A DNA stretch of 40,621 nucleotides, taken from contig JAISXA010000151.1 in assembly GCA_031270685.1 (NCBI GenBank), positions 1-40,621 on the forward strand, written 5' to 3'. This document shows positions 1-38,239 of this stretch, piece by piece (the first letter of the stretch is position 1; the number at the start of each line of letters is the position of its first letter). A program made the position numbers and the translations under genes. A model generated the notes under the pieces. That model searched no databases. It had not been told where the DNA came from and worked only from the letters and a program-made list of their open reading frames with translations. Source of the stretch: Planctomycetota bacterium (lineage in GTDB: Bacteria > Planctomycetota > SZUA-567).

Positions 1-191
1 ACTTTTGAAGGAAATCAATCGAACCGCCGATTGATTTCCTTCAAAGTTTCAGGGCGTTCGTTTCAGAACCGTTTTTTTGCAATGTCGCCGGCCAGGGTCG
101 AGTTGACGAAAAACAACCCATTGAAAAGAAAGCGGCTGAATCTTTAAAGGAAATCGGGCGGCGGTTGGCCCGATTTCCTTTAAAAGTCGAC
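1..191. repeat. Composite hairpin element, copy 1
   Basis: Two hairpins are separated by about 95 bases. The first (1-47) has arms 1-21 and 28-47 around the loop AACCGC. The second has perfect 17-base arms at 143-159 and 168-184 around an 8-base loop that reads CAACCGCC on the minus strand. The element ends in AAAAGTCGAC (182-191). The whole unit, including the spacer, recurs in opposite orientation at 20548-20741. The left edge may be cut by the window. No gene is seen in 1-276; the stretch 192-276 is only the leader of the next gene. Confidence 0.85.
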
Positions 192-5247: not shown

Positions 5248-5254
5248 GTGGAGT

Positions 5255-5332
5255 TTTGGAGGAAATCGGGCCAACCGCCGCCCGATTTCCACCAAAGATG
5301 TTACTGTTTACGGATCAACGGGTTGTTTTTTT
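5255..5332. repeat. Hairpin repeat (family I) plus part of the composite spacer
   Basis: Arms 5255-5271 and 5280-5296 pair with one mismatch around the loop CAACCGCC (5272-5279). The following 36 bases (5297-5332), ending GGGTTGTTTTTTT, resemble the spacer of the composite element at 20595-20630. This is therefore a truncated composite in the 5' leader of rpmB. Confidence 0.8.
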
Positions 5333-14415: not shown

Positions 14416-14494
14416 CGCCGTCATCCCCGCCGGCCGGTCGCCGCCGCGTCGCGGAATGCGGCGCGAAAAGGCGCAGGCGTCTTCCAAACTGAAG

Positions 14495-14538
14495 TTTTGC
14501 ACCGTGGCGATTAAACCGCCAATCGCCACGGTGCAAAA
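14495..14538. repeat. Hairpin repeat (family II), perfect 18-bp stem
   Basis: Arms 14495-14512 and 14521-14538 are perfectly complementary around the loop AAACCGCC (14513-14520). The stem sequence differs from the family I copies but the loop is the same. It lies about 80 bases upstream of the homocysteine methyltransferase start, in its likely leader. No T-run follows in either direction that would make a standard terminator. Confidence 0.85.
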
Positions 14539-14623
14539 ATCAAAACCGCAATCTCATCACAAATTGCGCTGCCAGCACAAGAAAAAAATCATGACTTAAC
14601 CCTGCGGCGCCCCTCTTTTACCC

Positions 14624-18028: not shown

Positions 18029-18082
18029 AGTGGACTTTTGAAGGAAATCAATCGTTCGATTGATTTCCTTCAAAAGTCCACT
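18029..18082. repeat. Hairpin repeat (family I), perfect 26-bp arms with no loop module
   Basis: Arms 18029-18054 and 18057-18082 are perfect inverted copies separated only by TT. The usual eight-base CAACCGCC-type loop is missing. The outer ends read AGTGGACTTTTGAAGG and its complement. It lies about 55 bases upstream of the -35 of the second lacI gene. Confidence 0.9.
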
Positions 18083-18214: not shown

Positions 18215-19261
18215 GTGAGCCGAACCACCATACACGATATCGCGCAATTGGCTGGCGTCGGCAAGGCGACCGTGTCCCGGGTGTTGAACCGCACCGGATA
18301 CGTCAGCGAGGAGACGCGGCGCAAGGTCGAAAAGGTCATCCGCGAGCACACCTACACGCCGTCGGCGATGGCCAGAAACCTTTCCCGGCGCGCGAGCGAC
18401 ACCATCGGCGTCATCATCCCCGAGGCGGACAACCCGTTCTTCGCCGAAATCCTCAAGGGCATAAGCGGCGTCGTCGACGACCACAACCTGACCCTCATCT
18501 TCTGCAACACCGACAACACCATGGAGAAGGATCTGCGGTCGCTCCACACCGTATACAAGCAGCAGGTCAGGGGGCTGATCTACACCCCGGCGATCGACTA
18601 CGCCGCCGCCGGCAAGCGCGAAGCCGTCCGGCAGATCCTCGACAAGCTGCGCGTGCCGGTGGTGGTGCTCGACCGGCCGCTCGACGGCCTGGACCTTGAC
18701 GGCGTCTTCTCCGACAACAACGCCGGCGCCTATGCGGCGACCCAGGCGTTGATCCGCGCCGGACACCGCCGCATCGGCATCGTCGCCGGCGACCTCGAGC
18801 TTTCCATCGGGCGCGAGCGGCTGAAAGGCTTCGAGCGGGCGCTGTCGGATCACGGCCTCGCCGTCGAGCGGCGGCATGTCGTCAAGGGGCGCTTCGATGC
18901 CTCGACCTCGTACCGGCTCACCCAGCAACTGCTCGCCGGCAAAAACATCCCGACCGCCTTTTTCGCCGCCAACAACCTGAGCGCTTACGGGTTCCTGAAG
19001 GCGGTCTTCGAAAAGGGTTTCAAAATCCCCGACGACATGGGCTTCATCAGCTTCGACCGCCTCGGCAACCTGAACGATCTCGGTTTCCGCCTCAGCTACA
19101 CCGACCGCGACGTCATCGGCATGGGCGTCGAGGCCATGCGCCTGCTGCTGGCGAAGATCGAGAACCCGGGCAAAAGGACCGAAACCATCGTCTGCCCGTC
19201 GAAATTGTCGCTTCTTGGTTCCGAACGGGCTTATCCGGCGAAACAGGCGGTTTCCGCATAG
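18215..19261 (+). CDS. LacI-family transcriptional regulator (second copy), sugar regulator
   Basis: The 348-residue product starts with the LacI HTH TTIHDIAQLAGVGKATVSRV and the hinge YTPSAMARNLSRRASDTIGV, then a full ligand-binding domain (FFAEILKGISGVVDDH, VVVLDRPLDG, PTAFFAANNLSAYGFLKAV, IGFISFDR-like GFISFDRLG). GTG at 18215 is chosen because GGAGA (18204-18208) is 6 bases upstream and the HTH then begins the protein. The gene leads an aldo/keto reductase and a CUT2 sugar ABC transporter, so it is likely their local sugar-responsive repressor, acting at the GGAA(C/G)CGGTTCC sites. Confidence 0.94.
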   Translation: MSRTTIHDIAQLAGVGKATVSRVLNRTGYVSEETRRKVEKVIREHTYTPSAMARNLSRRASDTIGVIIPEADNPFFAEILKGISGVVDDHNLTLIFCNTDNTMEKDLRSLHTVYKQQVRGLIYTPAIDYAAAGKREAVRQILDKLRVPVVVLDRPLDGLDLDGVFSDNNAGAYAATQALIRAGHRRIGIVAGDLELSIGRERLKGFERALSDHGLAVERRHVVKGRFDASTSYRLTQQLLAGKNIPTAFFAANNLSAYGFLKAVFEKGFKIPDDMGFISFDRLGNLNDLGFRLSYTDRDVIGMGVEAMRLLLAKIENPGKRTETIVCPSKLSLLGSERAYPAKQAVSA

Positions 19262-19310
19262 TGGACTTTTTAAGGAATTGAACTTTTGCAAATTGTGGAT
19301 TCTAATCGCC
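19262..19310 (+). repeat. Degenerate hairpin repeat remnant
   Basis: GTGGACTTTTTAAGGAA matches the outer arm of family I, and TTTTGCAAATTG followed by TAATCGCC matches a family II arm and loop. No good pairing arm remains. The aldo/keto reductase promoter lies inside it. Confidence 0.5.
19278..19306 (+). promoter_or_regulatory. Sigma70-type promoter of the aldo/keto reductase
   Basis: TTGAAC (19278-19283), a 17-base spacer and TCTAAT (19301-19306). The predicted start is near 19313, about 20 bases before the operator at 19332. The leader to the gene would be about 210 bases and would contain the AT-rich inverted-repeat element. Confidence 0.5.
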
Positions 19311-20510: not shown

Positions 20511-20547
20511 TTATTCCGCGATCCGGGCCGAACAAGTCCGCTCATAA

Positions 20548-20741
20548 TCGACTGTTAAAGGAAATCGGGCCAACCGCCGCCCGATTTCCTTTAAAGATTC
20601 AACCGTTTTCGTTTCAATGGGTTGTTTTTTCGTCAACTCGACCCGAACCCGTGACGGTGCAAAAAAAAGCGTGGTTGAAACGAACGCCCTGAAACTTTGA
20701 AGGGAATCAAACGGCGGTTTGTTTGATTTTCTTCAAAAGTT
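20548..20741. repeat. Composite hairpin element, copy 2 (inverted relative to copy 1)
   Basis: Hairpin A has perfect 16-base arms (20555-20570, 20579-20594) around CAACCGCC. Hairpin B pairs 20694-20712 with 20721-20740. The roughly 100-base spacer matches the reverse complement of the spacer at 48-142 and contains its own inverted pair, CGTTTCAA (20610-20617) with TTGAAACG (20675-20682). It fills most of the 325-base gap between the aldo/keto reductase and the solute-binding protein. Confidence 0.85.
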
Positions 20742-20742
20742 C

Positions 20743-20765
20743 GCTCATGGCGATGCGCCATGAGC
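20743..20765. promoter_or_regulatory. 23-bp dyad upstream of the solute-binding protein
   Basis: Arms GCTCATGGCG (20743-20752) and CGCCATGAGC (20756-20765) are perfect inverted copies around ATG. It lies 70 bases before the gene, next to the composite repeat. It could be an operator or an mRNA hairpin; a second small hairpin (CCGGC/GCCGG, 20781-20794) follows. Confidence 0.4.
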
Positions 20766-21885: not shown

Positions 21886-21926
21886 GAACCGGTCCCGGAA
21901 AGCGTTATGCCATTGTTTGAAGTTTT

Positions 21927-21986
21927 GCGAATTGGGCATTCAAATCGCCGAATGCCCAATTCGCGATAATCGCGGCTAAAAGTCGA
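21927..21986. repeat. Hairpin repeat (family II) between binding protein and permease genes
   Basis: Arms 21927-21941 and 21950-21964 pair perfectly around the loop AAATCGCC (21942-21949). The edge motif AAAAGTCGA follows at 21978-21986. It sits inside the ABC operon, where a stable hairpin after the binding-protein gene could raise expression of that gene over the permeases. A GAACCGGTCC half-match to the LacI site lies just before it (21886-21895). Confidence 0.85.
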
Positions 21987-29838: not shown

Positions 29839-29913
29839 GGCGGCGTAGCCAAGCGGTAAGGCAATGGTTTGCAAAACCATCACACACCAGTTCGATTCTG
29901 GTCGCCGCCTCCA
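29839..29913 (+). tRNA. tRNA-Cys(GCA)
   Basis: A full cloverleaf: acceptor GGCGGCG (29839-29845) with CGCCGCC (29903-29909), D-arm GCC...GGC (29848-29862), anticodon stem ATGGT/ACCAT around TTGCAAA with anticodon GCA (29871-29873), and T-arm ACCAG/CTGGT around TTCGATT. The discriminator base is T (U73), as required for tRNA-Cys, and CCA is encoded at 29911-29913. It is divergent from the CPBP protease. Confidence 0.97.
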
Positions 29914-29940
29914 TTTTTCCAACTCCCGCTTGGAAGGCTG

Positions 29941-29992
29941 CTTTTAAAGGAAATCGGGCCAACCGCCGCCCGATTTTCTCCAAAAGTCCACT
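29941..29992. repeat. Hairpin repeat (family I) 28 bases after tRNA-Cys
   Basis: Arms 29942-29959 and 29968-29986 pair with a few mismatches around CAACCGCC (29960-29967), and the outer edge AAAAGTCCACT follows (29982-29992). It could fold at the 3' end of the tRNA precursor. From here to 30298 no gene is seen. An imperfect inverted repeat (30072-30112) and a short hairpin TTCCAAC/GTTGGAA (30199-30223) lie in that gap. Confidence 0.85.
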
Positions 29993-37181: not shown

Positions 37182-38168
37182 ATGCGGACGTCGATTCGTT
37201 GGTTTTGTGCGATCGCGCTTGCGGCGCTCTGCCTGGCGGCTTCGGCCGCCGCCGCCGACCGGGCCGGCGGGAAAATCGCCGCGCCGACGCCGGATGACTA
37301 TTACCGGGGTTCGGGGAAAGACATGCCTCGCGCCATCGGCGAACTGCCCGAACCCATCCGGACGCCCAGGCCCGACAACGGCGAAGCCTATTCCAGGATG
37401 GCCGTACCGGACCAGGACAAGCACGGCGCCAAGCGTCGGAAAACCCGGGTGCTCCCCCCGTTCCGCCAGCGCGCCGAGGTCGAGGACACTTTCCCCGAGG
37501 ACGACGGGCCGGTCTATTCCGAAGCGCATGCTCCACCGGAAGCTGACGACCCCGACCTCCTCGCCGGCGGCAAGGAAGTCGTGAAGGAATTGTCGGCGAC
37601 CGCGCCGGCGTCCGGATCTGCCGATCCCGCGACAACGGAAACCGCATCGCCGCAAGCGGTGGTCGCGCGGCCGATGGGTCATACCGCGCCGCCCGGATCC
37701 AGTTTTGACCCTTATGAAGCGCCTCCGGAGCGGCTTCCGACGCCGGAAGGCGTCGAAGACTATCGCGCCCGGCTCGAGGAACGCCTTCTGGAACGATACA
37801 ACAACCTACCCGATTACGCGGGAAAGGTCGGCTTGGTGCGGGTGGTTCTTTCCAGACCGCTTGAAACGTCGATCGACGGCAAATTCATCCGCGCCGAATT
37901 CGACCAGCTCGTGTACGACCTATGGGGGAAGCGGCTGACCAGGCTCGAGGAAGAATATTTCACCGTCACCTTCGGCGAGGACGGGGCGCAGCGGGTCAGG
38001 TCGGAGCCTTCAATCCGCGTCGGCCTGGATTTGAAGGGGGCGTACTCCGAAATGGCTCCGCCGATCGCCTGGCCTTTGGAGAAGATCGATCCAGACGAGG
38101 CGTTCGACCATCCCCCGGCGGTGAAAATGCCGTCTTGGTGGCGCCCGGAATTTCCCGAACTGCAATAG
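37182..38168 (+). CDS. Secreted protein of unknown function
   Basis: Function not recognised. The 328-residue product has a Sec signal peptide (hydrophobic core FCAIALAALCLAASAAA, likely cut before DRAGG), then a long low-complexity, Pro- and acid-rich region (about 30-195). A more ordered C-terminal part begins near PEGVEDYRARLEERLLERYNNLPDYAGKVG and continues through VRVVLSRPLETSIDGKFIRAEFDQ and WGKRLTRLEEEYFTVTFG. GGGGAGACAAGG supports ATG 37182. It is followed by a hairpin repeat and then the heparinase II/III-like gene, so the two are probably one transcript with a shared extracytoplasmic role. Confidence 0.75.
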   Translation: MRTSIRWFCAIALAALCLAASAAAADRAGGKIAAPTPDDYYRGSGKDMPRAIGELPEPIRTPRPDNGEAYSRMAVPDQDKHGAKRRKTRVLPPFRQRAEVEDTFPEDDGPVYSEAHAPPEADDPDLLAGGKEVVKELSATAPASGSADPATTETASPQAVVARPMGHTAPPGSSFDPYEAPPERLPTPEGVEDYRARLEERLLERYNNLPDYAGKVGLVRVVLSRPLETSIDGKFIRAEFDQLVYDLWGKRLTRLEEEYFTVTFGEDGAQRVRSEPSIRVGLDLKGAYSEMAPPIAWPLEKIDPDEAFDHPPAVKMPSWWRPEFPELQ

Positions 38169-38169
38169 A

Positions 38170-38225
38170 GTCGACTTTTGAAGGAAATCAATCGGCGGTT
38201 CGTTTGATTTCCTTCAAAAATCCAC
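38170..38225. repeat. Hairpin repeat (family I) inside an operon, just before a ribosome-binding site
   Basis: Arms GTCGACTTTTGAAGGAAATC (38170-38189) and the matching 38206-38225 pair with two mismatches. The centre reads CGAACCGCC on the minus strand. The GAGGAGAG ribosome-binding site of the next gene begins 4 bases after it. Confidence 0.85.
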
Positions 38226-38239
38226 ATAGAGGAGAGAAC

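Follow-up and report, generated by a model that had tools for sequence, protein, structure and literature searches.

A two-hairpin unit present twice in the window

The window, by which we mean the whole 40,621-nucleotide stretch of DNA analysed here (contig JAISXA010000151.1 of the Planctomycetota bacterium assembly GCA_031270685.1), carries two copies of a composite hairpin unit, a half-element, several solo hairpins, and hairpins of a second repeat family (Table 1). An Rfam search returned no match for any of these repeats, its only match in the window being a tRNA gene at 29839-29910 (+), with the decayed solo hairpin (about 29936-29991) a short way downstream of it.

As the original prediction had it, positions 1-191 match the reverse complement of 20548-20741 along their full length, spacer included: a global alignment gave 172 identical columns out of 196 (88%) and a score of 285, far above that of shuffled sequences (mean -22, maximum 15). 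Window positions 1-191 and 20547-20744 are thus two insertions of one DNA element that face opposite ways. The real ends of the unit are GTGGAC on one side and GTCGAC on the other, so its length is 195-198 bp, and copy 1 is four bases short at its left end, as the window, which is the whole contig, begins inside it. The two ends form an imperfect terminal inverted repeat of approximately 70 bp, and within each end lies a palindrome of approximately 43 bp whose loop, AACCGCC, points inward. An inner pair, CGTTTCAA (20610) and TTGAAACG (20675), had been proposed for copy 2 and is indeed found there; it is the inner part of the terminal inverted repeat, and in copy 1 it has been lost by mutation. 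When folded as DNA, copy 2 (z -4.35) forms an inner stem in addition to its two end hairpins, and the folded hairpins are far more stable than shuffled sequence (z -5.8 to -12.5). A partial unit had also been placed at 5255-5332; a partial copy does exist, only its true position is 5248-5331 and it is half of an element of an older subfamily, A2. No open frame of its own is seen in this element of approximately 195 bp.

Table 1. Repeat elements and flanking duplications located in the window.
Feature	Position	Strand	Remarks
Copy 1 of the family A1 composite: two hairpins on either side of a ~95-base spacer, then the GTCGAC end	1..191	+	97% identity to A1 reference, positions 5-195
Copy 1 left hairpin, loop GAACCGCC on + strand	3..45	+	Fold z -9.3; palindrome scan
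Copy 1 right hairpin, loop CAACCGCC on - strand (inward from its own end)	143..184	-	Fold z -6.1
Half-element of subfamily A2 (one end and part of the spacer)	5248..5331	-	90% identity to A2 copy L069 5180-5377, positions 115-198
Family B hairpin (GTGGCGATT-AAACCGCC-AATCGCCAC type) with end CTGAAGTTTTGC	14489..14540	+	
Solo 52-bp perfect palindrome, two GTGGAC ends, neither loop nor target duplication	18030..18081	.	
Copy 2 imperfect target-site duplication, left half TCATA	20542..20546	.	Agrees with 20745-20749 at 4 of 5 bases
Complete copy 2 of the family A1 composite	20547..20744	-	Ends located; empty site in G001
Copy 2 imperfect target-site duplication, right half TCATG	20745..20749	.	4 of 5 bases match TCATA
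Family B hairpin (TTGGGCATTC-AAATCGCC-GAATGCCCAA type)	21916..21968	+	
Decayed family A solo hairpin, one outer end lost	about 29936..29991	-	
Solo hairpin joining GTCGAC-type and GTGGAC-type ends	38170..38225	-	Flanks ATAGA (38165-38169, 38226-38230)

Copy number and genomic setting

Copy 1 was the best query for a copy search, in which 40 of 446 first-look candidates were scored, and it retrieved at least 43 near-full-length copies with 75-100% identity from the window's genome, a draft of 3.18 Mb in 283 contigs that is 89% complete. The hairpin core GGAAATC-N12-22-GATTTCC has 225 exact occurrences in the same genome, while the reversed control does not occur at all. In 125 kb made up of the window and seven stretches picked for holding hairpins, we found 35 pieces, 14 of them full length. 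The sampled copies are mostly intergenic, with neighbouring genes in every relative orientation as judged from crude ORF calls. Plasmid records gave one chance 29-bp match only, and in viral contigs neither the terminus nor the hairpin patterns had an exact match.

Like copy 1, several further copies are located at the edges of contigs, and a high-copy mobile family of this kind may help explain the fragmentation of such bins. Two of the sampled loci, L006 (C86) and L029 (C223), have an identical left flank as far as the composite but diverge beyond it, reflecting either strain variation or rearrangement through the repeat. In another genome, the element positions on contig G010:C14 (84380 bases) are mirror-symmetric (13065+/71238-, 31723-/52591+), and this contig is therefore probably a palindromic assembly artefact.

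Target-site duplications and an empty site

The original prediction had looked to target-site duplications at the composite edges as a check. In a sample of 71 composites from several genomes, an exact 5-bp duplication lies directly outside the GTSGAC ends in 26, against 0.17 expected from pairing the flanks of different copies, and duplications of other lengths do not stand out. Among copies with 90% or higher identity to the reference, 24 of 47 have the exact duplication, so that about half of the young composites are without one, versus 1 of 20 more diverged copies. The AT content is 73% for the duplicated bases, 46% for the flanks, and 35% for the window. Such 5-bp duplications are the signature of a staggered double-strand cut.

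Copy 2 was inserted at its site, since the matching site in the same-genus genome G001 is empty. When the flanks of copy 2 are joined without the element and with one duplication, they align to G001 as a single stretch at 76% identity; when the element is retained, the alignment splits into two pieces around it. The intergenic part of this alignment is gapped and gives the junction in G001 only approximately, but the element is absent there. Joined flanks from several sites were searched in the same way and yielded this one spanning empty site, the other matches covering one flank only.

The prediction that the hairpins move as larger modules is thus supported by at least 43 composites, the 5-bp duplications, and the empty site for copy 2. 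The explanation that had been set against it, a simple old duplication of one segment in a genome with no further composites and relatives with no empty sites, would account for the two inverted copies in the window, but it is refuted by the number of composites, by their unrelated flanks and individual duplications, and by the site in G001.

Matched stem changes and a second family with the same loop

Family A stems are 17-18 pairs long. Where the palindromes differ from one end of the element to the other, the differences are matched on both arms (GAAGG/CCTTC versus AAAGG/CCTTT, and AATC/GATT versus GGGC/GCCC). Across 228 hairpins, Watson-Crick pairs occupy 92.8% of stem cells, compared with 78.6% for column shuffles (maximum 80.5% in 500 shuffles), a difference that is inflated by the relatedness of the copies. 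Matched changes can also be private to one copy: an otherwise invariant G-C pair has become T-A in one, and the matched change GAAGTAAATC/GATTTACTTC is confined to copy L027. As the stem changes are matched while the loop stays fixed, they suggest either that the hairpin matters to mobility or that it stays palindromic via template switching.

A palindrome scan (arms of at least 13, loops of 2-10) of the sampled loci of the window's genome recovered 90 perfect palindromes, nearly all with an AACCGCC-type loop, a count biased towards family A because the loci were chosen for holding hairpins. Two kinds of palindrome have stems unlike those of family A, namely TTTTGCAAARTGGCGATT and CAAATTGGGCATTC, and these are the two ends of a second miniature inverted-repeat transposable element (MITE), family B. 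It is approximately 145 bp long with ends CTGAAGTTTTGC.../...GCAAAAGTTCAG, and is distinct from family A in sequence while having the same loop with the same polarity. A 5-bp duplication at one offset fits 3 of 10 complete family B copies, which is suggestive only, since the offset was chosen after looking. In the loci of G005-G008, genomes without family A, no AACCGCC-type loop was found in the 35 kb scanned.

Family B elements also occur as nested insertions inside family A hairpins (L014 1752-1951 and L082 1999-2285). In the window, a fragment resembling a family A end (GTGGACTTTTTAAGGAATT) at 19261-19282 is followed directly by family B-like sequence (GAACTTTTGCAAATTG); these are possibly the remains of a nested insertion.

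The matched stem changes could come purely from template switching between the palindrome arms, i.e., quasipalindrome correction, with the hairpin having no role in transposition. Changes confined to one copy, such as those above, are what this process would leave, and template-switch correction of quasipalindromes is reportedly known in E. coli. Template switching by itself, however, would not hold the sequence and polarity of a loop fixed across two sequence-distinct families, and we lean slightly against it as the whole explanation while regarding it as a serious possibility. The two families might instead share a structure-based end signal, made up of the fixed AACCGCC loop with its polarity and almost any stem that pairs. 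In that case a single transposase of the staggered-cutting kind, or a helper, would read the extruded loop and not the double-stranded repeat, and so would mobilise families with different ends. We hold this idea to be distinctly improbable as it stands; a fixed loop with changing stems in two families does make it testable whether hairpins in DNA can be read by a transposase that cuts with a stagger.

Solo hairpins, half-elements, and chimeras

The shorter copies had been proposed to be breakdown products of the composite, and this is true of some of them. Nine complete solo hairpins (52-56 bp, with both termini) were found, of which three are flanked by at least four of five duplication bases, with 0 expected. 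Two solos are hybrids of one GTGGAC-type and one GTCGAC-type end, with a duplication of 5/5 bases (ATAGA) around 38170-38225 and of 4/5 around L081 2012-2067, as expected from in-place recombination of a composite's two hairpins. The solo at 38170-38225 is likely a collapsed composite, and we infer that collapse is the source of some solo hairpins. Many other short copies are half-elements cut within the spacer. In contrast, six of the nine complete solos have no duplication, and the palindrome at 18030-18081, with its two GTGGAC ends and no AACCGCC loop, is unexplained by simple collapse of a composite. At two different loci (L070 361-643 and L071 340-620) there are chimeras of approximately 282 bp in which an A2 right half and an A1 right half lie back to back, perhaps as a mobile unit of their own.

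Distribution across genomes

Family A was found in five genomes (G000, G001, G009, G010, and G011) out of 18 from the order. G009, which belongs to another genus of the family, has copies up to 96-97% identical to the query, and none are found in four further genomes of that genus. Near-identical copies in another genus that are absent from its congeners suggest recent horizontal spread between related planctomycetes. In a collection of named genomes, the inner-left sequence has a sole match, Planctomycetota bacterium Nc350_bin29. The prefix Nc (as in Nc150) denotes Nasutitermes corniger in a termite-gut study (PMC7024585); the code Nc350 is absent from that study, and a termite-gut origin of the planctomycete host genome is therefore probable by inference from the prefix.

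The patchy occurrence bears on the idea that the host retains the hairpins as transcription terminators or RNA-stability elements. The RNA hairpins are stable and the copies are mostly intergenic, as this idea would have it, but the genes on either side of the copies show every relative orientation (on crude ORF calls), diverged copies decay, and among five other genomes of genus g5-type relatives the element is absent from four. We consider retention for such a role very unlikely, though a side effect of the hairpins on transcripts is possible.

A MITE and its predicted partner transposase

Because of its many copies, 5-bp duplications, and empty site, we assign the unit to the MITEs: it is very probably a non-autonomous DNA transposon of approximately 195 bp, mobilised by a DDE-type transposase with a 5-bp stagger acting in trans, and later decaying to halves and solos. 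That the element is mobilised in trans by a staggered-cutting (DDE-type) enzyme is itself probable. In the proposed mechanism, the transposase supplied in trans would bind both element ends, cut with a 5-bp stagger, and insert the whole unit by DDE-type chemistry, so that 5 bp of AT-rich target would be duplicated. After insertion, point mutation, truncation, and recombination between the two similar hairpins would then leave half-elements and solo hairpins.

Candidate transposases were sought in five genomes. Tn3 elements make 5-bp, AT-rich target duplications, and no Tn3 transposase (PF01526) was found in any of the five. DDE_Tnp_1 (PF01609) gave 36 matches, and family A ends flank none of the 20 DDE_Tnp_1 loci that were opened. 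A third possibility is that the same genome encodes the partner as an IS1380-type (PF13701) enzyme. IS1380 elements make 4-5 bp duplications, PF13701 scores above the cut-off in just two of the five genomes, G000 and G009, which are also the richest in family A, and the one visible IS terminus, CCGGACTTATTCA (CCGGACTTATTCATACG), shares GGACTT with the MITE end GTGGACTTTT. Against this, six shared bases are weak evidence and the other IS terminus was not seen intact, the visible end is without a hairpin or an AACCGCC loop, and five genomes are a small sample of bins 81-89% complete. The IS1380-like copies are thus a weak candidate, and we think it unlikely that they are the partner. Two IS1380-like fragments lie within approximately 25 bp of composites; both may merely be in dispensable DNA.

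Other repeats abut the composites as well. Four contigs (L155 C17:4304-4395, L156 C71, L157 C39:1-76, and L158 C2:34033-34108) end in the same sequence of approximately 90 bp (CTGTTATGAAGTCTGG...), which starts at the same point inside a family A hairpin while the hairpin and flank sequences differ among the four. It was considered as an autonomous copy and rejected, its body being absent from the bin; it has the appearance of a multi-copy element that failed to assemble and takes the hairpin as its target. In G009, the composites L049, L052, L057, L058, and L067 continue directly into a different repeat, TTTAAGAGCGTGTTGTTAAAT...GTCTCGTCGGGTT, whose insertion site appears to be TTTAA.

Comparison with known systems

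The layout of the element is like that of REPINs, in which two inverted hairpins and a spacer replicate as a unit and single hairpins are largely remnants (PMC3116915). GTAG- and CGTC-tagged REPs, palindromic and paired as inverted dimers, have been reported from Planctomycetes too (PMC3733652). We therefore weighed whether the unit could be of the REP/BIME/REPIN type, which a RAYT (Y1) transposase spreads in single-stranded form. The inverted hairpin pair repeated with a conserved spacer, the solos as remnants, the intergenic positions, and the hundreds of hairpins all agree with such an origin. However, a Y1_Tnp (PF01797) search found no match, and hence no RAYT gene flanked by the repeat, in the window's genome, while the same search was positive in five control genomes; a single missed gene is possible in a bin that is 89% complete. 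Furthermore, the ends read GTSGAC and carry no GTAG or CGTC tag, the stems of 17-18 pairs are longer than the 5-13 or 8-9 bp of tagged REPs (PMC3733652), the sequence is another one, and there are 5-bp target duplications. By the tests made, the element is not a REP/BIME, and we regard this origin as extremely improbable: the layout is REPIN-like, but REPIN membership fails on tags and transposase, and the target duplication differs too. Since a REPIN-like element leaves a 5-bp duplication, paired inverted hairpins alone are no evidence of RAYT-driven spread.

Miniature elements derived from Tn3 likewise have 5-bp AT-rich target duplications, but the ends described here do not start with GGGG, and a host Tn3-family transposase was lacking from the five genomes searched with PF01526.

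Close likeness is also seen to prokaryotic MITEs in general, which are short, gene-less, and intergenic, with terminal inverted repeats, target duplications, and REP-like truncated copies (reviewed in PMC10969869). The unit is short and encodes no transposase, it has terminal inverted repeats and a target-site duplication of fixed length, and its many interspersed copies include one with an insertion polymorphism. Apart from the partner transposase, for which PF01609 and PF01526 gave none with matching ends and PF13701 a weak candidate only, all the defining features tested place it with the MITEs. A close parallel is QMITE2 of Coxiella burnetii, which is 150-190 bp long, makes duplications of 7-11 nt, contains a GTAG REP, and has a hairpin that is targeted by IS1111 (PMC5896051), much as the CTGTTATGAAGTCTGG... 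element apparently targets the family A hairpin. The planctomycete element differs from QMITE2 in its 5-bp duplication, and its unusual trait is that both terminal repeats are hairpins in their own right, whose fixed AACCGCC loop sits on stems that vary.
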